Counted from the first letter of the stretch, positions 17,572 through 35,157 are shown. The stretch is DNA of 64,000 bases from Alphaproteobacteria bacterium (GCA_028281925.1 JANQIX010000008.1:1-64000); one strand, 5' to 3'. Numbers and translations are program-made. The notes: a model not told the origin generated them from the letters alone.

Positions 17572-18459
17572 CTATTGCCAGACCGCCTGTGACCACACAG
17601 CGGCGATCATGGCTGGGACGACACGGTGCGCTGGGCATTCGCTCCAGCCGCCGCGCATGAAGGTGATGCGTGGGTCGAGGCTGCGTTGGCCTGCCTCGCG
17701 AATGGCAAACGTGACCAGCGTCCCGGGCCGGAGCGGGCCGACCAGGCTGTCCGCATGGCCGTCGGCCTGGCGCACGATGGTGCGCGGCCCGACAAGCGTG
17801 CGGGCGATGGCTTCGGCTGTACTGACGCTCGCCCGGTCGTCCGCCTCGCGATAGAGCTTCGCCAGGCCCTCCATCGCATCGACCAGATTGTGCACGGCAA
17901 TCCCGGTGCTGTGCACCGCGGATGGGTCCCCCTTCGCGGCATCCGACAAGGTCCGCTGGGCCCTGTAGATGCTGCCGATGATGACCCTCAGCAGATGCGT
18001 GAGCGGGTTGTTGCTCTCCGCCGCCCGCTGCAGCCGCTTTGCTGCGGCCCATGTCTCGCCCGTGGCCTGATAGTCGGCGTCAAACAGCCGGCCCACAAGC
18101 TGCTGGGTCAGCGGGCCGACCTCGCCACCTTCCCCGCGGACGAAGCCGCTTAGCGCTGCCACCGTTTCCTCGTCCAACAGGCGTTCCGGCTCGGCAGGCG
18201 TCAGCCGGTCCGTCAACGCGGCCTGGGCGGCCGCCCGGTCGGTGTCGTCGCGGCGGAGGATCGTCGGCAGCGGCCGGCGGCCGGTGCTCAGAGTGAAACG
18301 CAGGCGCCCGGTGACGAAACGGTTGAACAGCGGTCCCGCAGGACGCAAGCCCCGATCGAGGGTCGGATGCGGGGCGACGGCCCTGATCGCGTCCGGCGTC
18401 GACACCGAGACAACGTCGATCAGCCAGGGGATGCGGATCCGCCTCGCCACTGCCGTCAC
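17572..18459 (-). CDS. unknown protein with cytochrome-P450-like C-terminal signature
   Basis: 295 residues from GTG 18459, overlapping the stop of the alpha-dioxygenase gene as GTGA. The last 80 residues read like the end of a P450: an EAIAR...R helix (ExxR position), R-x-A before LVGPLRPGTLVTF, then SLDPRITFM and GGWSECPAH, where Gly and Cys align with the FGxGxHxCxG heme-thiolate loop. The protein is much shorter than a 400-residue P450 and the loop is degenerate, so heme binding is not assured. Fungal psi-factor oxygenases fuse a related heme dioxygenase to a P450 domain, which makes this pairing meaningful. Otherwise an unknown lipid-oxidation accessory. Confidence 0.6.
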   Translation of the reverse strand: MTAVARRIRIPWLIDVVSVSTPDAIRAVAPHPTLDRGLRPAGPLFNRFVTGRLRFTLSTGRRPLPTILRRDDTDRAAAQAALTDRLTPAEPERLLDEETVAALSGFVRGEGGEVGPLTQQLVGRLFDADYQATGETWAAAKRLQRAAESNNPLTHLLRVIIGSIYRAQRTLSDAAKGDPSAVHSTGIAVHNLVDAMEGLAKLYREADDRASVSTAEAIARTLVGPRTIVRQADGHADSLVGPLRPGTLVTFAIREAGQRSLDPRITFMRGGWSECPAHRVVPAMIAAVWSQAVWQ

Positions 18460-20297
18460 CTCTCCGCCGTCTTCCAGGGGAAGAAGGGATTACGCGCATC
18501 GGCAAAGGCATCGGCCAGTACCGGGCAGTGACGCCGGACGACCGAGGCGAACCCATTTTCCTGCACCCAGCGGAATCCGGCCTCGGTGTAGATCTCCGGC
18601 CGGAAGTCGTCGGTATAGAACCGGTCGCTCTTCAGCCGCCGCGAGGCCATGACGATGAAGATGCGAAAGGCCGTGTCGGAGAAGCCGAAGCGGTACGGCA
18701 TGCCGCGCTTGGAGCGCGATTCGGCCAGCGTGCCGATCAGCAGGTCGACCTTGTCGACGCTGCCATAGATGTCCTTCAGTTCTTTCTGCCAGTCCTTGTC
18801 GTCGGTGATGTCGGCGAAAGTGTCCGGCGGCTTCATGCCCAGGAGACGGCGACATTCCTTGAACCGGGGCACGCCGCGCTCGCGGTCGCGCAGGATGTCG
18901 ACGGCGGCCAGATCCATGAACACCGATTCGTCGGCGCGCTTGTCGATCTTCCGCAGCGTGTTGGGGAAGTTGTGCAGCACCAGCGCGCCCGGATGGTCGG
19001 TGGCAAGCGAATAGACGACGTCTTCGAACGACGCGTGGTCGTAGATCGACCGCGCGCTCGCGAACGCGGCCTCGGTCAGCGTCCGGCCGAACAGCGCGCT
19101 GTTGTCTTCATGGCTGCGGAACGACAGGTCGTCCGGCAGCAGCGAATGCATGCGATAGATGGCCGTGAATTCCTCGGTCATCGCGTAAGGCACGTCGCTG
19201 TGGTCCTGCGGCGAGCCGGGGATGCCCGAGGTCACCTCGCTGTCGGAAAACCGGCCGAAGGCGTTGATGAACGTTTCGCCCATCAGCCCCCAATAGTTGC
19301 CGCGCATGATCAGGCGGCCCCGCGGCGAGTCCATCAGCGCCGGCGTCCATTCCACGGTGTGGATCTTCGCCATCAGGGCGGCGTTCACCAGGCGCGCCTT
19401 GTGGTACAGCCAGTCGCCGGAGGCCTGGGGGAAGTCGATCTTCAGCCGGTCGACGATGGCATTGTGTTCGCGCGTGAACAGGGTGTGCAGGACGGATAGG
19501 CCGATCCACCAGTTGCCGTTGACGCCGGAGAGCTCAAGGCTCTCGGTCGTTCCGTCGATCGGTAGCAGCCCGCCGTCGGTCAGCCCCAGCTTGCCGTCGT
19601 CAAGAAACGCGGCGGGCTTGCCGTCCGGGCCGGGCCGGCTGCGCACCTGCCGGTTGCGTTCAGGCGTGGAACCATAGATCTGCGAGCCGTCCCACCAATG
19701 GGTTTCGATATTGCGATAGGTGGCCGGCCGGCCTTCGTCTTTCGGATTGGTGTCGTCGTCCGGCTTGGTGCGGGGCACCAGCATGGGCCGCCGCGGCCAG
19801 TCGTCATCGGCGCCAAGCGGGACCTCGAGCATGTTCTCCTTCTTGTTCTTCCCGTGCCCCAGCCAGTCATGCACCATGAACTGGATCCACGCCGCCGCCA
19901 GCAGGTTGAGATGCGGGACAGGCGCGAAGCTCTGGCGCGCAAGCAGGCGCCGCGACACCTCGCGGGGGTTCGGATCCATCAACAGCGGCGGCGACTCGCC
20001 GAACGCGGCCGAGAGCGGCACGTTGCGCCCGAAGCGGGTGTCGGTCTTGCCCATCCAGGGCGTGCCGAGATCGTTGAAACTGCCGTCGATGGTGCGCGCA
20101 CCCTGAATATCGAAATCTTCGGGAACCGAAGGGTTCTCCGGCGCAGTTTCAGTATCAACTAAATTGTTGTTACGCAGATTGACGCGATGGCCAAGGACGA
20201 TCGCAATGCCGGCGATGAACGGCCAATGATGCCAGACACGAAATCCCTCGGTCAGCCGCGCCAGCGTGCCGAGGATCCAATCAGCGAATTGCTTCAC
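18456..20297 (-). CDS. fatty-acid alpha-dioxygenase-like heme protein (animal heme peroxidase/cyclooxygenase superfamily)
   Basis: 613 residues from GTG 20297, preceded by GGGAGGA. Key motifs fit plant-type alpha-dioxygenase: AAWIQFMVHDW with the distal His near residue 140, a WWDGSQIYGS block, TLFTREHNAIV, and EEFTAIYRMHSLLPD near 375-390 holding the catalytic Tyr and proximal heme His in the same order as cyclooxygenase YHWH. Length matches alpha-DOX (about 630). Expected reaction: O2 addition at C-2 of a fatty acid to give a 2-hydroperoxide that decays to a shortened aldehyde. An N-terminal hydrophobic stretch (WPFIAGIAIVLG) may associate with membrane. First gene of the six-gene operon. 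Confidence 0.88.
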   Translation of the reverse strand: MKQFADWILGTLARLTEGFRVWHHWPFIAGIAIVLGHRVNLRNNNLVDTETAPENPSVPEDFDIQGARTIDGSFNDLGTPWMGKTDTRFGRNVPLSAAFGESPPLLMDPNPREVSRRLLARQSFAPVPHLNLLAAAWIQFMVHDWLGHGKNKKENMLEVPLGADDDWPRRPMLVPRTKPDDDTNPKDEGRPATYRNIETHWWDGSQIYGSTPERNRQVRSRPGPDGKPAAFLDDGKLGLTDGGLLPIDGTTESLELSGVNGNWWIGLSVLHTLFTREHNAIVDRLKIDFPQASGDWLYHKARLVNAALMAKIHTVEWTPALMDSPRGRLIMRGNYWGLMGETFINAFGRFSDSEVTSGIPGSPQDHSDVPYAMTEEFTAIYRMHSLLPDDLSFRSHEDNSALFGRTLTEAAFASARSIYDHASFEDVVYSLATDHPGALVLHNFPNTLRKIDKRADESVFMDLAAVDILRDRERGVPRFKECRRLLGMKPPDTFADITDDKDWQKELKDIYGSVDKVDLLIGTLAESRSKRGMPYRFGFSDTAFRIFIVMASRRLKSDRFYTDDFRPEIYTEAGFRWVQENGFASVVRRHCPVLADAFADARNPFFPWKTAER

Positions 20298-20561
20298 CCA
20301 GTCCTCCCGGTTCTTGCTGGCGGCCGATACTTCGTCGGATATTGAACGGACGGCGCCTTATGTAAGACCAGGATCTTCGCTCGATTGCGGCCGGGACGCA
20401 ACTGGGGAGGCACCAGCACGGGCGCAACCTTCGGTCGTTCTGCGGAGATCCGGCCTGCGTACGCGGATCTGAGTTTGGACAAGAGCCGTTCGGCGAGACA
20501 GCAAATGGCCGAGAGGCAGCCATTGTAGCGCGAATCGGCTCCATGCGGAGACAGCCCCCCG

Positions 20562-21242
20562 CTACAGGTGCCGAACGATGATCCTGCCATTGCGTGGCAC
20601 CGTCAGTTCGAAGTGCCTGCGCTGAACGACATCGCGCACCGCAGGCGGCCGGAACGAGACGACGTTGGTGCCTGCCGGATCGCGCACGCTGTCATAGACG
20701 ATGCCCGCGTGCGGCGATGCGCGGACCTGGGCGCCGAAGGCCTGGCCGGCGGCATAGTCGTCGGGCCGGTAGACATCAGGCAGAGTGGCGGAACGGCCGC
20801 GGATGTCGACATGGTCGCCGGCAAGATGCGCCTGATAGGCGCGGTACTGGGAGACGATCTCCGGCTGGCCGGCACGGTGCGCTTCGCGGCGCAAGTGGTG
20901 GGCGACCTCTTTGATCGCGGTTTTTTCGGCCAAGCTGGCATACCAGGCGCCCAGCTGCGCATCGCTGAAGCGAGCGCCGTCGGGCGAGGGGTGCAGGAAG
21001 GCGGCCAGGATCACGCCGGCGTTGCTCCGCCCCAGCACTCGCTGATCCTCGGGCAACCGGTGCAGGCGATGGCGGACCAGCCGATCGTTGGTCCAGCCCT
21101 CCAGCGCCATCACGGCGTCCAGGTCGCCGGCCGAGGCGACGGTGTCGAACGCCTGAATGGTGGGATAGCGACTGGGGATCAGCCGCCACGTTTCAGGGAA
21201 CGGACCGGCTGTCGGCAGTCGGTCGAGGCCGGTCCCGGTCAC
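20562..21242 (-). CDS. RES-domain toxin of a RES/Xre toxin-antitoxin pair
   Basis: 226 residues from GTG 21242, overlapping the antitoxin stop as GTGA. The family-defining Arg, Glu and Ser are seen in TWRLIPSRYP, KTAIKEVAHH and YDSVRDP. RES toxins (MbcT-like) fold like ADP-ribosyl transferases and deplete NAD+ when free of antitoxin. The gene order antitoxin-then-toxin with overlap is standard for this type. It lies downstream of the antitoxin, next to a TIR-STAND gene, in what looks like a defence-type island. Confidence 0.88.
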   Translation of the reverse strand: MTGTGLDRLPTAGPFPETWRLIPSRYPTIQAFDTVASAGDLDAVMALEGWTNDRLVRHRLHRLPEDQRVLGRSNAGVILAAFLHPSPDGARFSDAQLGAWYASLAEKTAIKEVAHHLRREAHRAGQPEIVSQYRAYQAHLAGDHVDIRGRSATLPDVYRPDDYAAGQAFGAQVRASPHAGIVYDSVRDPAGTNVVSFRPPAVRDVVQRRHFELTVPRNGRIIVRHL

Positions 21243-21763
21243 GCGAAGACCAGATCGTCGTCCACGATCGGCGTATGTTCGAAGTTCGCGCCGGCGAGCG
21301 GGGCCGAGGCTTGGCCGCCGTGCCACGCGTCGAGATAGCGCCGCACCAGATAGAGGCCGTCTTGCGTGCCGGAGACGACCAGCGCCAGGGGCGGCTGGCC
21401 ACCAAAGGTCGTACCGTCATTGGGCGCGGTCAGCCACGCCAGCCCCTGACCGTCGCGGACGAAGATCAGCTTCAGCGCCTTGTAGATGCCGAGCACGGCG
21501 GAGATGCGCAGCAGCCCGTCCAGCGGCAGCCGGACGGCGGCCCCCGCCTGGGCCTTCGCCAGCCAGCCATGATAGGTCGACCGTCCGGGCTGGCCCAGGA
21601 CGGCCAGCCGGTCCTTCTCGCTCAGCCCCCATTCATTGGCGATGTTGGCAAAGATCCGCAGCCCCGGACCGCTGAGGCGCATGCGTTCGTCATTGGTTAT
21701 GCTGCGTGGGTCCATATCGGTCGCCGGCGCGAGACTGTGAATGAGGGCTGTCTGCGCGGCCAT
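21239..21763 (-). CDS. MbcA/ParS/Xre-type antitoxin
   Basis: 174 residues from ATG 21763 (ATG 21778 is also in frame). The N-terminal/central part is a helix-turn-helix region (FANIANEWGLSEKDRLAVLG, then RSTYHGWLAKA). The C-terminal part (ALVVSGTQDGLYLVRRYLD) is the toxin-binding DUF2384-like domain. It neutralises the RES toxin encoded directly downstream and should repress its own promoter. The start codon lies beside a strong palindrome (21779-21799), which supports autoregulation. Confidence 0.88.
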   Translation of the reverse strand: MAAQTALIHSLAPATDMDPRSITNDERMRLSGPGLRIFANIANEWGLSEKDRLAVLGQPGRSTYHGWLAKAQAGAAVRLPLDGLLRISAVLGIYKALKLIFVRDGQGLAWLTAPNDGTTFGGQPPLALVVSGTQDGLYLVRRYLDAWHGGQASAPLAGANFEHTPIVDDDLVFA

Positions 21764-21778
21764 GATCCATATGTCCAT

Positions 21779-21799
21779 ATATGGATATAATATCCATAT
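21779..21799. promoter_or_regulatory. 21-bp perfect palindrome, probable antitoxin operator
   Basis: ATATGGATAT-A-ATATCCATAT is a perfect 10+1+10 inverted repeat. Further CCATAT half-sites occur at 21767-21772 and 21775-21780, so four related half-sites are packed into 33 bp. It covers the likely -10 region on the minus strand (TATTAT, 21792 to 21787) and abuts the antitoxin start. A TATAAT on the plus strand (21786-21791) means rightward transcription toward the STAND gene could be controlled as well. Confidence 0.7.
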
Positions 21800-21892
21800 C
21801 CGGACATTGCCAGCCAAATACTCTTCCCTTGACCAGCGGTGGCCCGAGAGGCGGCCAAACGTGCCAGGCGTTGGATAGGTGCGACTCCAGAC

Positions 21893-21996
21893 GGCAGGAG
21901 ATGCCCGTCTCGCGCGGGCATGACGGTCTTGATTGTTGTTTCTCCGGCAACTCAACCAGCTCGTCGTCCTCGCGAAGGCGAGGACCTCCCTGGCAC
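21893..21996. repeat. intergenic repeat element, copy A
   Basis: About 100 bp shared with 28078-28174. Both begin GGCAGGAGATGCCCG and end ACCTCCCTGGCA. Two hairpins are visible: an ATGCCCG/CGGGCAT stem (21901-21921), and GTCCTCGC-GAAG-GCGAGGAC, an 8-bp stem with a GAAG tetraloop. The middle is less conserved. It lies between the antitoxin and the TIR-STAND gene. Confidence 0.75.
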
Positions 21997-22129
21997 GGAG
22001 CAATGGCCGCTCAACCTGCGCCTCTCCCTCCGCTTCAGGGGTTGACCGCCGCCGATGACCGAACGATCGCAACATCTGTCGCCACTTCGGGTAGTTTTGG
22101 TTGGAGACCGATCGCATTAGGCTTCATCG

Positions 22130-25100
22130 ATGGCCGGAGAGCAGCCCCGCATCTTCATCTCGTATTCCACCCATGACGGGGCGGAGCGCGCCGCCGAACT
22201 GCGCCGTGAGCTTGAGGCCAAGGGGTTCGCCGTCTGGCAGGATCTGGTGGCGCTGCAGGGCAGCGCCGACTGGTGGACGCAGATCGAAGCGGTGCTGCGG
22301 TCCAAGGCACTGCAGCACTTCATCCTGATCGTCACGCCGAAGGCCCTGGCGAGCCGCCATGTGCGGGCCGAGATCCGGCTGGCGCGGCAAGAGGGCAAGA
22401 CGGTTTCGCCCGTGCGCGGGCCCGACATCGAAAGCCTGGACGACATGCCCCGCTGGCTGGGCAACGTCTATGACCTGAACGTTCCGGAACGCCGCACGAC
22501 CCTGATCCGCGTGCTGGAGCTGCCGAGCAGTGCCGCGCGCGTGCCCATGATGGCGCCGGAACCGCCGGAGGATTTCGTCCTCCGGCCGCGGGAGTTCGAC
22601 GCGCTGAAGCAGCAATTGCTGGACGCCAAGGACGATGCCGTGGCGATCACCGCGGCCCTGCGCGGCGCTGGCGGCTACGGCAAGACGACCCTGGCCCAGG
22701 CGCTGGCCCACGACCCGGACATCCAGGACGCCTATTTCGACGGCGTGCTGTGGGTGGAATTGGGCGAACAGGGCGGCGGCCGCGTGCTGGCGGAGATCGC
22801 CGATCTGGTCAAACTGCTGACCGGCGAAGCCCGCGAGATGTCCACGAACGACGGTGCCCGCACGGCGCTGGCTGAGGCGCTCGGCGACCGCCGCATCCTG
22901 CTGGTGGTGGACGACGTCTGGCAGCGCCCGCACCTGGAGCCGTTCCTGTTTGGCGGCCGTAACACAACGCGGCTGGTCACCACGCGGTTCGACCCGGTGC
23001 TGCCGGACAAGGCGGCGCGACAGCCGGTCGATGCCATGCAGGATGCCGAGGCGCTTGCGCTGCTAGGCCGGAACCTGCCGCCCGATCAGGTGGCCGGTCA
23101 GACGATAGCGCTCAGCCGGATGGCGACCCGGCTCGGCGAGTGGGCGCAGCTTCTCAAACTCGCCAACGGCTTTCTCAGAGACTGCGTCGATTTCGGCGCG
23201 ACGCTCGAAATCGCCATCGCCGATCTTTCGGCGGGTCTCGATGAACATGGCTTGGTCGCGCTCGATGCGGCAGAAGACGTCAGCTACGAGGATCGGCGGA
23301 CGTCCATCGCCAAGGTGATCGACACGTCGCTTGGGTTGCTGAACGACCAGGAGCGTGCCCGCTTCGGTGAGTTGGGCATCTTCCCTGAAGACGTGGACAT
23401 TCCGACCGGTATCGCGGCGCGGCTTTGGGCGGAAACCGGGCCGCTGAACGCGTTCCAGACACGGAAGCTGCTGATCAGGCTGTCCGGCCTCTCTCTTCTG
23501 TTCTCCCTGGACCTTGGCCGGCAAACGCTGCGTCTGCACGACACGACGCGCCATTTCCTGCGATACCGGGCGGGCGAGGAGGGGCTGGCTGCTCAGAACC
23601 AAGCGCTGGTCCGCGCCATCGGCGGCATCAACGGTGCCAAGGGCATGCCGACGGCGGAAGCGGAGTATGTCTACCGCCATCTGCCACAGCACTTGGCCGA
23701 CGCGCACGACCGTCAGGCGCTGGACGCGTTGCTGCTCGACCCCGGCTGGCTGAAGGCCAAGTTGGCGGCCAGCGGCAGCCCGCAGTCTATTGTCGGCGAC
23801 TACACACAGCACCGCCATGGACGGTTGCAGGACCTGATCGGCCGGACGCTAGGCGTGACCATCGGCATCTGCGCGCGCGATCCGCGTCAACTGTTGCCAC
23901 AGATCCTCGCCCGACTGATGGCGGTCACCGATGCCGACACCGAGGGTTACCGTGAGGCGGCGCGCAGACTGGTCGATCGCCCAGCGCTGTTAACGGAGCG
24001 GGCCAGCCTGAGACCCCCGGGGGCGGAAATTGCCCGCCTGGAGGGGCATACCGACTGGGTCACGGCGCTGGCGGTGCTGCCGGACGGCCGCCTCGCCTCG
24101 GGGTCCTCCGACACCACTGTGCGGCTGTGGGACCCGGCGACGGGCGCCGAAACCACCTGCCTGGAGGGTCACACCGACTGGGTCACGGCGCTGGCGGTGC
24201 TGCCGGACGGGCACCTCGCCTCGGGATCCAACGACGGGACAGTGCGGCTGTGGAACCCGGCGACGGGCGCGGAAATCGCCCGCCTGGAAGGTCACGCCGG
24301 CGCGGTGAGGGCACTGGCGGTGCTGCAAGACGGCCGCCTCGCCTCGGGGTCTTTCGACACCACGGTGCGACTGTGGGACCCGGCGACGGGCGCGGAAACC
24401 GCCCGCCTGAAGGGCCACACCAGGCGAATGCGGGCGCTGGCAGTGCTGCAAGACGGCCGCCTCGCCTCGGGGGCCGACGACAAGACGGTGCGGTTGTGGG
24501 ACCCGGCGACGGGGGCGGAAATCGCCCGCCTGGGCGGCCATACCAGTCGAGTGAGGGCACTGGCGGTGCTTCAAGACGGCAGCCTCGCCTCGGGGTCAGA
24601 TGATAGGACGGTGCGGCTGTGGGACCCTGCGACGGGTGCGGAAACCACCCGGCTGGAGGGGCACATCGGCGCGGTCACGGCGCTGGCGGTGCTGCCGGAC
24701 GGCCGCCTCGCCTCGGGGTCTTCCGATACCACGACGCGGCTTTGGGACCCTGCGACGGGCACGGGAACCGCCCGCCTAGAGAGCCATACCGGCGCGATCA
24801 CGGCGCTGGCGGTGCTGCCGGACGGCCGCCTTGCCTCGGGGTCTTCGGACACCACGGCGCGGCTGTGGGACCCGGTGACGGGCACGGGAACCGCCCACCT
24901 GGAGGGCCACACCGACGAGGTCACGGCGCTGAGGGTGCTGCCAGACGGCCGCCTTGCCTCGGGGTCCAATGACACCACGGTGCGGCTGTGGGACCCGGCG
25001 ACGGGGGCGGAAACCGCCCGCCTGGAGGGGCACGCCGACTGGGTCAGGGCGCTGGCGGTGCTGGCCGACGGCCGCCTCGCCTCGGGCTCCGACGACTGGA

Positions 25101-25756
25101 CGATGCGGCTCTGGGACCCGACGACGGGTGCGGAAACCGCCCGCCTGGAGGGCCACACCGGCTGGTTCACGGCGCTGGCGGTGCTGCCGGACGGCCGCCT
25201 CGCCTCGGGGGGCAACGATGGGACGGTACGGCTGTGGGATCCGGCGACGGGCGCGAAAACCGCCCGCCTGAGGGGCCACACCGGCTGGTTCACGACGCTG
25301 GCGGTGCTGCCGGACGGCCGCCTCGCCTCGGGGGGCAACGATGGGACTGTGCGGCTGTGGGACTCGGCGACGGGGGCGCAAGCCACCCGGCTGGAGGGCC
25401 ACACCGGCGCGGTCACGGCGCTGGCGGTGCTGGCGGACGGCCGCCTCGCCTCGGGCTCCGCTGACAACACGGTGCGGCTGTGGAACCCGGCGACGGGGGC
25501 GGAAACCGCCCGCCTGGAGGGGCACGCCGACTGGGTCAGGGCGCTGGCGGTGCTGGCCGACGGTCGCCTTGTCTCGGGATCGGATGACAACACTGTGCGG
25601 CTGTGGGATCCGGCGACGGGGATCGAGCTTTGTCGCCTCGAATTGGACAGGCCCATCCACTGCCTTGCGGTTCCGCCTCCCTACACGCGCTACGTCTGCC
25701 GCGTGGTCGCCGGCGATGAGGACGGCCGCCTGCACTGGCTTGAAATCTTGGATTGA
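22130..25756 (+). CDS. TIR-NB-ARC-WD40 STAND protein (apoptosome/NLR-like)
   Basis: 1208 residues from ATG 22130. A TIR domain (RIFISYSTHDGAERAAEL, residues 6-130) is followed by an NB-ARC ATPase with Walker A GAGGYGKTT near 180 and Walker B ILLVVDDVW near 256, a winged-helix region (about 430-510), and WD40 repeats from 638 to the end. Thirteen repeats of exactly 41 residues plus a degenerate last blade make 14, enough for two seven-bladed propellers as in APAF-1-type sensors. TIR domains of such proteins commonly hydrolyse NAD+ or signal on target sensing, so an antiphage or regulated-death role is plausible. The trigger is unknown. The gene neighbours a RES/Xre module. Confidence 0.92.
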   Translation: MAGEQPRIFISYSTHDGAERAAELRRELEAKGFAVWQDLVALQGSADWWTQIEAVLRSKALQHFILIVTPKALASRHVRAEIRLARQEGKTVSPVRGPDIESLDDMPRWLGNVYDLNVPERRTTLIRVLELPSSAARVPMMAPEPPEDFVLRPREFDALKQQLLDAKDDAVAITAALRGAGGYGKTTLAQALAHDPDIQDAYFDGVLWVELGEQGGGRVLAEIADLVKLLTGEAREMSTNDGARTALAEALGDRRILLVVDDVWQRPHLEPFLFGGRNTTRLVTTRFDPVLPDKAARQPVDAMQDAEALALLGRNLPPDQVAGQTIALSRMATRLGEWAQLLKLANGFLRDCVDFGATLEIAIADLSAGLDEHGLVALDAAEDVSYEDRRTSIAKVIDTSLGLLNDQERARFGELGIFPEDVDIPTGIAARLWAETGPLNAFQTRKLLIRLSGLSLLFSLDLGRQTLRLHDTTRHFLRYRAGEEGLAAQNQALVRAIGGINGAKGMPTAEAEYVYRHLPQHLADAHDRQALDALLLDPGWLKAKLAASGSPQSIVGDYTQHRHGRLQDLIGRTLGVTIGICARDPRQLLPQILARLMAVTDADTEGYREAARRLVDRPALLTERASLRPPGAEIARLEGHTDWVTALAVLPDGRLASGSSDTTVRLWDPATGAETTCLEGHTDWVTALAVLPDGHLASGSNDGTVRLWNPATGAEIARLEGHAGAVRALAVLQDGRLASGSFDTTVRLWDPATGAETARLKGHTRRMRALAVLQDGRLASGADDKTVRLWDPATGAEIARLGGHTSRVRALAVLQDGSLASGSDDRTVRLWDPATGAETTRLEGHIGAVTALAVLPDGRLASGSSDTTTRLWDPATGTGTARLESHTGAITALAVLPDGRLASGSSDTTARLWDPVTGTGTAHLEGHTDEVTALRVLPDGRLASGSNDTTVRLWDPATGAETARLEGHADWVRALAVLADGRLASGSDDWTMRLWDPTTGAETARLEGHTGWFTALAVLPDGRLASGGNDGTVRLWDPATGAKTARLRGHTGWFTTLAVLPDGRLASGGNDGTVRLWDSATGAQATRLEGHTGAVTALAVLADGRLASGSADNTVRLWNPATGAETARLEGHADWVRALAVLADGRLVSGSDDNTVRLWDPATGIELCRLELDRPIHCLAVPPPYTRYVCRVVAGDEDGRLHWLEILD
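24041..25639 (+). repeat. thirteen 123-bp tandem repeats encoding WD40 blades
   Basis: Period exactly 123 bp, 13 copies, high nucleotide identity (ALAVLPDGRLASGS and TVRLWDPATGAE recur almost unchanged). Variation concentrates in the residues just after GH(T/A) (DWV, GAV, RRM, SRV, DEV, GWF) and before the RLW strand. These positions are surface-exposed in WD propellers. The pattern suggests recent expansion or gene conversion. Confidence 0.95.
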
Positions 25757-25796
25757 GGCTGACGGTACGTAGCCGAATGGCGACGCGAGATCACGC

Positions 25797-26152
25797 CTAT
25801 CCCTGCTTCCAGTCCCGCACCGGCTCTTCGTCCATCTCTAGATGCAACTCTGCACCCTCGTACGGGTGTGCCGCGGCCACCGCCTCATCCAGCTCCACAC
25901 CCAGACCTGGTTCCGAGGACGGGATCACATAGCCATCCTCCCACCGGATCGGCTGTTTCAGGATCTCGGCGTGGAAGCCGCCCCAGGTCTGGATGCTTTC
26001 CAGGATCAGGAAATTCGACGAACAGGCGGGAAGCTGGATGTTCGCCGCGCCCTCGATCGGGCCGCAATAGAGGTGGAGGCGATCTGGGTATGGCGCGCCT
26101 CTGCCATGCCGGCGATCTTCTTGGCCTCCAGCAGGCCGCCGATGCGGCCCAG
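25797..26152 (-). pseudogene. 3' fragment of a duplicated enolase-superfamily dehydratase
   Basis: The C-terminal ~115 residues of the dehydratase encoded at 26834-28024 are repeated here (shared CGPIEGAANIQL, LILESIQTWGGFHAEILK, GLGVELDEAVAAAHPYEG). Homology stops abruptly near 26152 after GCGGCCCAG on the plus strand. A 1-nt deletion near 26080 puts IGGLLEAKKIAGMAEA out of frame with the rest. No start or catalytic half remains, so it cannot be functional. It ends at a TAG (25797-25799). Confidence 0.85.
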
Positions 26153-26184
26153 GGGCCGTGCCGAAGCCGGCGGCGGGGCGGCCT

Positions 26185-26833: not shown

Positions 26834-28024
26834 TCAGTCCTGCACCGGATCGCCGACCATATCCAGATGTAGATCCGCGCCCTCATACGGGTGCGCCGCC
26901 GCTACCGCCTCGTCCAGCTCCACCCCCAGGCCCGGCGCTGTCGGCGGGATGACGTAACCGTCTTCCCACCGGATCGGCTGTTTCAGGATCTCGGCGTGAA
27001 AGCCACCCCAGGTCTGGATGCTCTCCAGGATCAAGAAATTCGGCGAACAGGCGGCGAGCTGGATGTTCGCCGCGCCCTCGATCGGGCCGCAATAGAGGTG
27101 GGGGGCGATCTGGGCGTAGTGCGCCTCGGCCATGCCGGCGATCTTCTTGGCCTCCAGCAATCCGCCGACGCGGCCCAGTGCCATCTGCAGGATCGAGGCG
27201 GCTTGGAGCTGCAGCACGCGGGCGAATTCGTACTTAGTTGTCAGCCGCTCGCCCGTGGCGATGGGGATGGAGGTCTGCCGGGCGACGCGGGCCATTTCCT
27301 CCGGCACCTCGGGCGGTGTCGGCTCCTCGAACCAGAGCGGGTCATAGGGCTCCAGCGCCTGGGCCAGGCGGATTGCGCCCGACGTGGTGAACTGGCCGTG
27401 GGTGCCGAACAACAGATCCGCCTTGGTGCCCACGGCTTCGCGGAGGCGGCGCACGAAGGCGGCGGAGCGTTCGATCGCCGCCAGCGACGGCTGGCGCGGG
27501 TCGAACACCGTGTACGGTCCCGCGGGGTCGAACTTCACCGCGGTGAAGCCCTGGGCGACACAGGCCGCGGCGCGCTCCGCCGCCAAATCCGGGTCGGCAT
27601 AGACCTCGGTACCCTCGCCCTCGGCCGGATAGAGATAGGTATAGCTGCGCAGGCGCTCGTGCACCTTGCCGCCCAACAGGTCATAGACCGGGCGGCCCAC
27701 GGCCTTGCCGACAATGTCCCAGCAGGCCATTTCCAGCCCGCTCAGCACGCCTACCAGCGACACGTCGGGGCGCAGCGTATAGCCACCGCCGTAGACGCGG
27801 CGCCACAGCGTCTCGATGCGGAACGGGTCGGCACCCTGGACGTGCCGTTCGAACACGTCCTCGATCATCGCCACGATCGTCTGGGGCCCGAAGGTCGCGG
27901 CATAAACCTCGCCCACGCCTTCGATGCCGGTGTCGGTGACCAGCTTCAGGAACAGGAAATAGCGGCCGCCGAAATGCGGCGGCGGATTGCCGACGACGAA
28001 GGTGCGGAGCTCGGTGATCTTCAT
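26834..28024 (-). CDS. enolase-superfamily sugar-acid dehydratase (mandelate racemase/ManD-galactonate dehydratase group)
   Basis: 396 residues from ATG 28024. The capping domain (MKITELRTFVVGNPPP) is followed by the barrel. Visible active-site elements are TAVKFDPAGPY (Lys region), the Glu ligands in LWFEEPTPPE and IATGERLTT, and HLYCGPIEGAANIQLAA. These Mg2+ enzymes abstract a proton alpha to a carboxylate and eliminate water. The substrate is likely a hexonate or related sugar acid but cannot be read from sequence. A repeat element and an alcohol dehydrogenase gene lie upstream on the same strand, and a 3' duplicate of this gene lies at 25797-26152. Confidence 0.85.
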   Translation of the reverse strand: MKITELRTFVVGNPPPHFGGRYFLFLKLVTDTGIEGVGEVYAATFGPQTIVAMIEDVFERHVQGADPFRIETLWRRVYGGGYTLRPDVSLVGVLSGLEMACWDIVGKAVGRPVYDLLGGKVHERLRSYTYLYPAEGEGTEVYADPDLAAERAAACVAQGFTAVKFDPAGPYTVFDPRQPSLAAIERSAAFVRRLREAVGTKADLLFGTHGQFTTSGAIRLAQALEPYDPLWFEEPTPPEVPEEMARVARQTSIPIATGERLTTKYEFARVLQLQAASILQMALGRVGGLLEAKKIAGMAEAHYAQIAPHLYCGPIEGAANIQLAACSPNFLILESIQTWGGFHAEILKQPIRWEDGYVIPPTAPGLGVELDEAVAAAHPYEGADLHLDMVGDPVQD

Positions 28025-28077
28025 GGGGTTCTCAATCTGTTTGATGGGCAGACGTTTTGATTGGCCCGGTGCAACAT

Positions 28078-28174
28078 GGCAGGAGATGCCCGCCTGCGCG
28101 GGCATGACGGCATTTGTTCTCTCGCGATCGATCAACCAAGTCGTCGGTCTCGCGAAGGCGAGAACCTCCCTGGC
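28078..28174. repeat. intergenic repeat element, copy B
   Basis: Second copy of the element at 21893-21996, same orientation. The first hairpin is ATGCCCGC-CTGC-GCGGGCAT (28086-28105). The second is TCTCGC-GAAG-GCGAGA, in which a C-G pair of copy A is replaced by T-A, a compensatory change. It lies between the dehydratase start and the alcohol dehydrogenase stop. Confidence 0.75.
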
Positions 28175-28222
28175 AGGGACACCAGCCTCTCCACAAGCGC
28201 ACGCGCAAAGGTGTGCCCCGGC

Positions 28223-31869: not shown

Positions 31870-34800
31870 ATGTGGTACCGGCTTACGGCCCTGATTGCGC
31901 TCGCCTGCCTGGCGGGGATGGTACGGCCCGCCACGGCGCAGGCGCAGGACGGCAGCCCCAACGTGGTCATGGTGCTGGACGCCTCCAACAGCATGTGGGG
32001 CCAGGTCGAGGGCGAGCACAAGATCGTCATCGCGCGCCAAGTGGTGGCCGAGCTGTTGGGCGACTGGGACCCGGGCGTGGAACTGGGCCTGGTGGCCTAC
32101 GGGCACCGGCGCGAAGGCGACTGCTCGGATATCGAGACGGTTATCCCGGTCGGCACTGTGGATCCGCAGGCATTCTCCCAACAGGTCGACGGCCTGCTGC
32201 CGCGTGGCCGAACGCCGCTGACGGCGGCCGTGCGCCATGCCGCGGAGCTGCTGCGCTATGACGATGAGCCCGCCACCGTGATCCTGCTGAGCGACGGGAT
32301 CGAGACCTGCAATGCCGACCCCTGCGCGCTCGGGGAAGAGCTGGAGCGCGCTGGCGTGAACTTCACGGCCCATGTCATCGGCTTCGACGTGGCCGCGCCG
32401 GAGGACCAGGCGCAGCTGCGCTGTCTTGCCGACAACACCGGCGGCGTGTTCCTGACGGCCGAGACGGCGGAAGAGCTGTCGCAGGCGATGGACACCGTGC
32501 GCGAGGCCACGGTTGAGCCTGTGACCGATGCCACCATTACGCTGCAGGCCATCGACGGTCCGGACGGCCCGGTGTTTTCGGATGGCGTGACGTGGCGGGT
32601 CACGACCGAGGCCGGTGCGCCCGTTTTCGACGCCACGGACACGGGCGCGGCGGAGGCGGTGCTGGAAGCGGGTCGCTATGTGGCCGGCGCCGAACGCGGC
32701 GATGCGTTCGGATCGACCGTGTTTGAGGTGACGGCAGGCGATCCGGCGACGCACCAGGTGGTGCTGACGATGCCTCTGCCCGAGGCCACGCTGGACGCAC
32801 CGCCGGAGGTGCCGGCCGGGTCCGGCATTCCGGTTGTCTGGACCGGGCCGGACGATGATGGCGACTACATCACCGTGGTACCCGCCGATGCGGATGCCGG
32901 CGCCTATCTTGATTACAGCTACACCCGCGACGGCAGCCCGCTCGAGGTGCTGGCCCCTGAGGAGCCCGGTGAGTACGAGCTGCGCTACATCTGGGACGAT
33001 TCCCGCGAGATCATCGCAAGCCGCCCGATCATCGTAACGGAGGTGCTGGCCACGCTGGAGGCGCCGCTGGAGGTGGTAGCGGGCTCCGACGTCAGGGTGG
33101 ACTGGACCGGACCGGACAACGATCTGGACTTCATCACGATCGTCGCGGCCGGCGCCGATGAGGGCACGCACGGCAACTACACCTACACGCGCGAGGGCAG
33201 CCCGCTGGATGTGGCGGCCCCGGACGAGCCGGGGGCCTATGAGATCCGGTATCTGACGGCCCAGACGCGGTCGACGCTGGCCAGCATTCCGCTGACCGTC
33301 TTGGAGGCCGGCGCGACATTGGAGGCGCCTGCAGAGGTTGTTGCCGGTGCCGATGTGCGGATCGACTGGACTGGGCCGGACAACGACCTTGATTTCATTA
33401 CGATCGTCGAGGCGGGCGCCGATGAGGGCACGCACGGCAACTACACCTACACGCGGGAAGGCAGCCCGCTGGATGTGGCGGCTCCGGACGAGGCCGGCGA
33501 CTACGAGATCCGCTACCTTACGGCCCAAACGCGAGCCACGCTGGCCAGCATCCCGCTGACGGTTGCGGAGGCCGGCGCGACGCTGGAGGCGCCGCTGGAG
33601 GTGGTGGCGGGGGCGGACGTACGGATCCACTGGACCGGTCCGGACAATGAACGCGACTTCATCACCATCGTCGAGACAGGGGCGGACGAGGGCACGCACG
33701 GTAACTACACCTACACGCGCGAGGGCAGCCCGCTGGATGTGCCGGCCCCGGACGAGCCGGGTGCCTATGAGATCCGTTATCTGACGGCTCAGACGCGGGC
33801 CACGCTGGCCAGCATCCCGCTGACGGTTGCGGAGGCCGGCGCGACGCTGGAGGCGCCGCTGGAGGTGGTGGCTGGTGCAGATGTCCGGATCGATTGGACC
33901 GGACCGGACAACGAGCGCGATTTCATCACGATCGTTGAGGCCGGAGCCGACGAGGGCGAGTTCGGCAACTACACCTACACGCGCGAAGGCAGCCCGCTGG
34001 ACGTGCCGGCCCCGGATGAGGCCGGCGACTACGAAATCCGGTATCTGACGGCACAAACGCGGGCAACGCTGGTGAGCCTTCCGCTGACGGTGACAGCGGC
34101 CGGTGCGACGCTCGAGGCACCGCAGGAGGTCGTGGCGGGCGCGGATGTCCGGATCGACTGGACCGGGCCGGATAACGAGCGCGATTTCATCACGATCGTG
34201 GAGGCTGACGCTGACGAGGGCGAATTCGCCAACTACACCTACACGCGGGAAGGAAGCCCGCTGGAGGTACCGGCTCCGGATGAAGCCGGCGACTACGAGA
34301 TCCGGTATCTGACGGCCCAGACCCGGGCAACGCTGGTGAGCCTTCCGCTGACGGTGATGGCGGCCGGGGCGACACTGGAGGCACCGCAGGAGGTCGTGGC
34401 GGGCGCGGAAGTCAGGATCGACTGGACCGGGCCGGATAACGAGCGCGATTTCATCACGATCGTGGAGGCTGGCGCCGACGAGGGCGAGTTCGGCAACTAC
34501 ACCTATACGCGCGAAGGAACCCCGCTGGAGGTGCTGGCGCCGGAGGAGGCCGGCGCTTTCGAGATCCGCTATCTGACGGCCCAGACTCGGGCGACGCTGA
34601 CAAGCCTCCCGCTGACGGTGACGGAGGCCACAGGGACGCTCGACGCGCCGCAAGAGGCAGTGGCCGGTGCCGATATCAGCGTGGTCTGGACCGGACCGAA
34701 CAACGACCGCGACTTCATCACCGTGGTCGAAGCCGGCGCCGATGAGGGTGAGTTCGCGGCCTACACCTATACGCGGGAGGGGAGCCCGCTGGAGGTGCGC

Positions 34801-35157
34801 GTGCCGGATGAGCCCGGCGCCTATGAAGTGCGGTACGTGACCGCGCAGACCCGCGCCACGCTGGTGAACCTGCCGATCACGGTGATCCCCGCGACGGCTA
34901 CTCTGCAGGCCCCCGAGGTGGTGATCGCCGGCGAGCTTTTCGACGTGACCTGGGAGGGGCCGGACAATCAGGGCGACGTGATCACGCTGGTTGAGGTCGG
35001 CGCGGATGAGGGCTCGGTCTTGTCCGGCTATACCATCACCAGGGGCGGCAATCCTGCCAGGGTGAGGGCACCGAACGAACCCGGGGACTACGAGCTGCGC
35101 TATGTGACGGGCCAGTCGCGCGCCACACTCGCGTCGATTCCCATCCGGGTGGAGTGA
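31870..35157 (+). CDS. exported VWA-domain protein with nine 88-residue tandem repeats
   Basis: 1095 residues from ATG 31870 behind GGGAGG. A signal peptide (LTALIALACLAGMV...ATAQAQ) is followed by a von Willebrand A domain (about 30-215) with an intact MIDAS motif DASNSMW and a later ILLSDGIETC. A beta-rich linker comes next, then nine repeats of about 88 residues from about 306 to the end. Each repeat has the form ATLEAP.EVVAGADVRIDW, TGPDN..DFITIV, YTYTREGSPL and YEIRYLTAQTRATLASIP, so an immunoglobulin-like fold is likely. Repeats are acidic. Probable metal-dependent adhesive or scaffolding protein in the periplasm or at the surface. No membrane anchor or sorting signal is seen. Confidence 0.9.
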   Translation: MWYRLTALIALACLAGMVRPATAQAQDGSPNVVMVLDASNSMWGQVEGEHKIVIARQVVAELLGDWDPGVELGLVAYGHRREGDCSDIETVIPVGTVDPQAFSQQVDGLLPRGRTPLTAAVRHAAELLRYDDEPATVILLSDGIETCNADPCALGEELERAGVNFTAHVIGFDVAAPEDQAQLRCLADNTGGVFLTAETAEELSQAMDTVREATVEPVTDATITLQAIDGPDGPVFSDGVTWRVTTEAGAPVFDATDTGAAEAVLEAGRYVAGAERGDAFGSTVFEVTAGDPATHQVVLTMPLPEATLDAPPEVPAGSGIPVVWTGPDDDGDYITVVPADADAGAYLDYSYTRDGSPLEVLAPEEPGEYELRYIWDDSREIIASRPIIVTEVLATLEAPLEVVAGSDVRVDWTGPDNDLDFITIVAAGADEGTHGNYTYTREGSPLDVAAPDEPGAYEIRYLTAQTRSTLASIPLTVLEAGATLEAPAEVVAGADVRIDWTGPDNDLDFITIVEAGADEGTHGNYTYTREGSPLDVAAPDEAGDYEIRYLTAQTRATLASIPLTVAEAGATLEAPLEVVAGADVRIHWTGPDNERDFITIVETGADEGTHGNYTYTREGSPLDVPAPDEPGAYEIRYLTAQTRATLASIPLTVAEAGATLEAPLEVVAGADVRIDWTGPDNERDFITIVEAGADEGEFGNYTYTREGSPLDVPAPDEAGDYEIRYLTAQTRATLVSLPLTVTAAGATLEAPQEVVAGADVRIDWTGPDNERDFITIVEADADEGEFANYTYTREGSPLEVPAPDEAGDYEIRYLTAQTRATLVSLPLTVMAAGATLEAPQEVVAGAEVRIDWTGPDNERDFITIVEAGADEGEFGNYTYTREGTPLEVLAPEEAGAFEIRYLTAQTRATLTSLPLTVTEATGTLDAPQEAVAGADISVVWTGPNNDRDFITVVEAGADEGEFAAYTYTREGSPLEVRVPDEPGAYEVRYVTAQTRATLVNLPITVIPATATLQAPEVVIAGELFDVTWEGPDNQGDVITLVEVGADEGSVLSGYTITRGGNPARVRAPNEPGDYELRYVTGQSRATLASIPIRVE
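32785..35154 (+). repeat. nine tandem 264-bp repeats within the VWA gene
   Basis: Copies start at 32785, 33049, 33313 and onward in 264-bp steps (88 codons). Copies 2 to 7 are highly similar at the DNA level; copies 1, 8 and 9 have diverged. This gradient is typical of an array growing by unequal crossing-over in its centre, so length variation between strains is expected. Confidence 0.95.

Follow-up and report, generated by a model that had tools for sequence, protein, structure and literature searches.

The HNWD receptors HET-D and HET-E of fungi are STAND receptors with highly similar WD40 repeats that undergo concerted evolution and exchange blades between paralogues, and their allorecognition of HET-C has been demonstrated genetically (PMC1805685, PMC12222747). 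Four codons per repeat unit are under diversifying selection: 7 and 9 flank a conserved residue of the d-a loop region, and 25 and 27 flank another in the b-c turn (PMC1805685). The nearest bacterial case is the cyanobacterial WRAP protein Npun_R6612 with its relatives, a STAND ATPase in which 14 WD40 blades have been amplified recently and, in the account of Dunin-Horkawicz et al. (2014) as summarised by PMC9218822, differ by 10 point mutations and no silent change; a TIR-STAND partner is encoded in the same operon, and a role in prokaryotic innate immunity is put forward there. The available part of the class-wide survey by Hu et al. reports that highly repetitive prokaryotic WD40 proteins retain diversity at interaction hotspots, and does not deal with any one receptor family, with exchange among paralogues or with effectors (PMC5587647). 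Here we describe a gene for a TIR-NB-ARC-WD40 protein in a 64,000-nucleotide stretch of DNA from an Alphaproteobacteria bacterium (GCA_028281925.1, JANQIX010000008.1:1-64000; hereafter the window). We consider it rather probable that this gene by itself encodes an Apaf-1-like STAND receptor in which a TIR effector is combined with a diversifying WD40 sensor. No experimental work on a protein of this layout was found in the open-access papers searched.

A preliminary description of the window had assigned 22130-25756 to a TIR-NB-ARC-WD40 protein with an Apaf-1-like order of domains. One open reading frame was confirmed there, and the order of domains was supported. The frame encodes 1208 residues, with the following features.

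22130-25756, + strand: whole gene, 1208 residues, in the order TIR, NB-ARC, APAF1_C helical domain and WD40 array
22151-22423, + strand: TIR_2 domain (PF13676, E 1.4e-15, Pfam match at residues 8-98; domain about residues 1-130)
22370-22372, + strand: codon of E81, the candidate catalytic TIR glutamate, from a phmmer alignment with E77 of TIR-APAZ
22595-23002, + strand: NB-ARC domain (PF00931, E 6.7e-17, Pfam match at residues 156-291)
22664-22690, + strand: P-loop GAGGYGKTT, residues 179-187, recognised in the sequence, its GK-T invariant in alignments
22892-22921, + strand: Walker B motif RILLVVDDVW, residues 255-264, recognised in the sequence, its DD-W invariant in alignments
23531-23542, + strand: MHD-like motif RLHD, residues 468-471, in the winged-helix part, with R468, H470 and D471 invariant
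23654-23818, + strand: APAF-1 helical domain (PF17908, E 8.4e-7, Pfam match at residues 509-563)
24020-25618, + strand: 13 WD40 units of 41 residues (123 nucleotides) each, hypervariable at unit positions 13, 15, 30 and 32
25619-25753, + strand: degenerate 14th blade and C-terminus, residues 1164-1208, equivalent to the blade that ends the array in other members

The TIR_2, NB-ARC and APAF1_C helical domains exceed their Pfam cut-offs and were found in all six family members scanned, and the hallmarks of a STAND NTPase (NB-ARC domain, P-loop, Walker B and MHD-like motif) are all present. In a search with a six-member profile against solved structures, Apaf-1 was the top match (E 3.8e-26, residues 143-564), followed by AfsR, plant NLRs and CED-4, and the TIR part matched SPARTA and SARM1. 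Apaf-1 was also the top fold match of the predicted TIR-NB-ARC model, with CED-4 and plant NLRs among the best, and Foldseek matched the TIR fold to the SPARTA TIR (2.9 A over 136 columns) and to that of SARM1. The alignment partner of E81 in TIR-APAZ, E77, is the residue altered in a catalytic mutant, E77A (PMC10474274), and E81 is invariant across the aligned family members, in agreement with the proposal that the catalytic TIR residue is kept. Because of the profile and fold matches to Apaf-1, the TIR matches and the E81 alignment, the layout is that of Apaf-1 with a TIR domain in place of the CARD. The N-terminus is TIR_2 and not CARD, and the protein is therefore Apaf-1-like rather than Apaf-1. 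The two have in common the NB-ARC domain, the winged-helix part with its MHD-like motif, the APAF1_C helical domain and the C-terminal WD40 blades, in the same order, whereas the TIR domain, the homogenisation of the blades and their number, 14, are peculiar to the receptor described here. Apaf-1 itself has 7+8 blades. The TIR NADases SPARTA TIR-APAZ, Thoeris ThsB and SARM1 share the TIR fold, with the catalytic glutamate aligned for SPARTA, but have other sensors and other activation machinery. Identity with the Avs or bNACHT STAND proteins was considered and rejected, as PADLOC gave TIR-bearing models only and Pfam assigns NB-ARC and not NACHT.

Other members of the family were found in the same genome and elsewhere. 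In the source genome, C111 has a TIR-NB-ARC part 69% identical to the focal one, its contig ending inside the array; the paralogue C85 is complete (47%), and C4 consists of an array end only, the blades of which are 91% identical in DNA to those of C111. C4 and C111 are probably the two ends of one receptor gene, as suggested by their blades, and were kept unjoined in the analysis (L019 / L027). The longest exact repeat in the C4 array is 87 nucleotides, and arrays with longer exact repeats break at contig ends. A complete member 69% identical to the focal one is present in G004, a genome of the same taxonomic family as the source, and others occur in Rhodospirillales, Devosia and Bradyrhizobiaceae metagenome-assembled genomes and in Microvirga massiliensis; a diverged member (37.7%) lies on a Rhizobium leguminosarum plasmid. 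The gene is absent from the sole congener and from most other genomes of the same taxonomic family, and a class-wide search gave full-length matches in 2 of 385 genomes.

As had been proposed, the focal array is made of thirteen blades of exactly 41 residues, in unbroken register from residue 631 to 1163, followed by a single degenerate blade, and it is far from what chance would produce (13.0 copies with a period of 123 and a score of 1909 in Tandem Repeats Finder). The earlier wording that the units are nearly identical at the DNA level was too strong, since their mean identity is 75% in amino acids (63-90%) and 81% in DNA (74-93%). Complete arrays have 13+1 units in the focal gene and G004 and 6+1 in C85 and Microvirga, the degenerate one always last, and the Rhizobium gene has diverged blades across 580 residues, of which about 14 were counted from the translation. 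Counts of 14, 14, 7 and 7, with about 14 in the diverged member, are those predicted by ring closure in sevens, and together with the published fungal and WRAP cases (PMC12222747, PMC9218822) they would fit two seven-blade rings in the focal array. An assembly artefact was rejected as the origin of these numbers: the longest exact repeats, 79 nucleotides in the focal array and 57 in that of G004, are short compared with typical reads, and independent assemblies also yield 13+1 or 6+1 units.

The fungal codons 7, 9, 25 and 27 correspond to unit positions 13, 15, 30 and 32, with V14 lying between the first two and D31 between the last two. These four positions were fixed in advance from the fungal work and scored in five bacterial arrays, in each of which their mean entropy was 1.3-2.3 bits, versus 0.2-0.5 elsewhere in the unit. 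The permutation P values of this excess in the five arrays were 0.00023, 0.00003, 0.00014, 0.00002 and 0.0044, and are to be taken as indicative because the units of an array are not independent. For the focal array, the ratio of nonsynonymous differences at the four sites (pN) to synonymous differences over the whole unit (pS) was 1.84 (1.40-2.31); the other arrays gave 3.06, 2.42, 6.67 and 2.18, and the bootstrap interval stayed above 1 in every case. Distinct four-residue combinations were counted in 10 of the 13 focal units and in 12/12, 6/6, 7/7 and 4/4 units of the other arrays. By DSSP on the array model, the sites fall where strand a begins and within the b-c turn. The preliminary description had placed the differences in a few surface positions, as in fungal NLR sensors; the per-position entropy of the 13 focal units does peak at positions 32, 30, 13 and 12, but several other positions vary too. 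The preliminary description would have been refuted by a lack of site-specific variation among orthologues; this did not occur, as the same four positions are hypervariable in the four other arrays. This occurrence of the HET-D/HET-E four-site signature in five bacterial arrays, with amino acid change above the silent rate, is new here.

When the four sites were masked, blades clustered by gene in C4/C111 (0.999) and in G004 (0.964), whereas focal and C85 blades were interleaved. Framework identity between focal and C85 blades was 0.850, versus 0.847 within the focal array and 0.751-0.787 for the other gene pairs. Between the focal gene and C85, pS was 0.574 in the TIR-NB-ARC part and 0.266 in the blades, the value within the focal array being 0.269, and the drop from TIR-NB-ARC to blades was smaller in other gene pairs. 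By these comparisons, blades are homogenised within genes and mixed between these two paralogues of the same genome. C85 is moreover 43% identical to the focal protein over residues 1-525 and 68% over residues 526-630, and other close members show the reverse trend (C111, for instance, falls from 71% to 58%). None of 5000 permutations reached the break in C85, at residues 520-525, whichever of three references was used. Among the controls, Microvirga and G004 were not significant; L031 was (P 0.0022), but at residue 366 and more weakly. C85 is thus a chimera, a diverged TIR-NB-ARC part joined near residue 525 to a focal-type sensor, and the identity break indicates that the sensor half moved onto a diverged TIR-NB-ARC head.

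Upstream of the receptor gene and divergent from it lies the following pair, the adjacency of which had been correctly noted.

20562-22117, - strand: RES toxin and Xre/MbcA-type antitoxin

The congener genome (G001) is colinear with the window (93%) up to 20402 and resumes at 26165, and the receptor and RES/Xre genes therefore lie in a lineage-specific segment, 20403-26164. As the two flanks are on different contigs of G001, the congener was set aside as an exact empty site. Elsewhere, C111 adjoins a large serine recombinase, the Microvirga gene sits between a resolvase on one side and tyrosine integrases on the other, and the G004 and C85 copies are surrounded by housekeeping-type genes. The genes next to the focal, C85, G004 and Microvirga copies differ and include no recurrent partner, which suggests a one-gene system with RES/Xre as a bystander; nor is there a second STAND gene beside the focal receptor in the window. 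The family is thus a small set of solitary, patchily distributed genes.

Several other features were observed in the window and the genome. Just downstream of the receptor, within the lineage-specific segment, a fragment of an enolase-superfamily gene (MR_MLE) at 25822-26154 duplicates part of the gene that is intact at 26834-28135. An interspersed repeat, about 105 bases long and present in the genome in roughly a dozen long copies, occurs at 21893-21995 and 28078-28179; one of its copies separates Xre from the receptor, and another precedes the C85 paralogue by about 1.4 kb. A gene with an animal-type haem peroxidase domain (PF03098), at 18456-20297 on the - strand, is also found in the congener. 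A putative secreted VWA protein is encoded at 31870-35157 on the + strand, and its repeats at 33052-34864, about seven tandem 88-residue units with a 264-nucleotide period and 83% matches, make it a second homogenised repeat gene in the window. In the same genome, the protein L026 (3351-6827, on contig C11) combines weak DUF4062 and NACHT/NPHP3_N matches with C-terminal WD40 blades, a layout as in human TEP1 and NWD1; DUF4062 has been described as a TIR-like NADase (PMC13174449).

By analogy with Apaf-1 and TIR NLRs, the activation of the protein, its ligand, its oligomerisation, its NADase activity and its anti-phage role may be pictured as follows. At rest, the WD40 array would keep an ADP-bound NB-ARC domain closed. 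A foreign protein, which most likely belongs to a phage or another mobile element, would bind the side of the array that bears the hypervariable loop residues, and nucleotide exchange would then allow the NB-ARC domains to assemble into a ring and the TIR domains to cluster. The clustered TIR domains would hydrolyse nicotinamide adenine dinucleotide (NAD+) and shut down the cell (abortive infection). Specificity could change by mutation at the four codons of each blade, by transfer of blade copies inside one array or from one paralogue to another, or by replacement of the whole sensor half through recombination near residue 525. Because the ring has to close, an array would have 7 or 14 blades, and the degenerate one would always come at its end.

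Several observations speak against this picture of a diversifying immune receptor. The TIR-NB-ARC model is of middling confidence (predicted local distance difference test, pLDDT, 70; predicted template modelling score, pTM, 0.45), the Pfam match covers just the first 91 residues of the TIR domain, and no relative was found encoded in the viral contigs or phage records searched. The two seven-blade propellers of the preliminary description fit the blade counts, but the AlphaFold2 model of the isolated focal array (pLDDT 82, pTM 0.59) shows a nine-blade ring, best matched by the designed nine-blade protein Cake9 (Z 44.9, root-mean-square deviation 1.5), plus five blades beyond a low-confidence junction. 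As the blades are near-identical and the alignment used for the model was shallow, with three rows, this arrangement was judged to be an artefact, although it leaves the two seven-blade propellers conjectural. The five scored arrays stem from few genomes, and pN/pS at the four codons alone is about 1.1-2.0, so that relaxed constraint on the loops together with homogenisation of the framework could explain part of the excess. The array might then be a recent neutral or structural amplification with loops that tolerate change and blades shared by slippage and gene conversion, all the more as bacterial WD40 blades have commonly been amplified in recent times (PMC9218822, PMC5587647). We regard this as unlikely: in each of the five arrays the ratio of pN at the four sites to unit-wide pS is greater than 1 over its whole interval, the fungal study had singled out exactly these sites in advance, and nearly every unit has its own combination.

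An explanation unlikely to the same degree concerns the output: the TIR domain could produce a cyclic ADP-ribose isomer as a signal to a separate effector that is encoded at another locus, or be a mere scaffold, and not deplete NAD+ itself. The sequence does not reveal the product chemistry of the TIR domain, and weak matches to SAVED-TIR and Thoeris proteins (PADLOC, NCBIfam) would suit such a signal, but no partner gene recurs beside the copies compared above, which still allows for a dispersed effector. More doubtful than either is an internal regulator or a self-recognition (kin) device, comparable to AfsR-type NB-ARC regulators or fungal incompatibility receptors. The Streptomyces regulator AfsR does match the NB-ARC profile, and the closest known evolutionary dynamics are those of fungal allorecognition genes (PMC1805685); AfsR, however, has a DNA-binding domain and no TIR, whereas the receptor has a TIR with a conserved glutamate, and the patchy distribution and recombinase neighbours are better suited to a mobile defence gene. 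That the TIR receptor and RES/Xre form one NAD+-linked module, as their divergent adjacency within a segment lacking in the congener might suggest, seems very improbable, since no such pair was seen beside the G004, C85 and Microvirga homologues. RES/Xre is, besides, a self-sufficient type of toxin-antitoxin system. The Apaf-1-like immune receptor with a diversifying sensor is therefore preferred to these alternatives.

Compared with WRAP, the receptor is likewise a STAND ATPase with 14 amplified blades, here 13+1 units, but TIR and repetitive propeller are on two proteins there and on one here; the blades here are 75% identical in amino acids, with a pS of 0.27 in the array and four variable sites, and paralogues of the family have exchanged sensors. 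With HET-D and HET-E the receptor shares the STAND architecture, the highly similar repeats in concerted evolution, the exchange of blades between paralogues, the four variable positions and a total of 14 blades (11 and 3 cryptic ones there), whereas the fungal proteins have HET and NACHT domains and 42-residue units in place of TIR, NB-ARC and 41-residue units (PMC1805685, PMC12222747). This likeness is an evolutionary parallel and not orthology. The combination of TIR and homogenised sensor in one protein, the quantitative match to the four fungal sites and the documented sensor swap are new here, as are the mixing of homogenised blades between two paralogues and the solitary, patchy occurrence of the genes. 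It is conceivable, if somewhat doubtful, that the fungal HNWD specificity system has arisen independently in these bacteria, with a shared blade pool, selection on four codons, ring closure at 7 or 14 blades and sensor swaps onto diverged heads.

The receptor adds an alphaproteobacterial protein to the relatives of the Apaf-1 layout. Innate immune receptors of bacteria are usually described as invariant detectors of conserved phage proteins, and to our knowledge their diversification is known mainly from retroelement systems. If the proposed working is true, the family would show a second way in which bacteria diversify their receptors, one based on recombination and available in a form that can be cloned and tested as a single gene.

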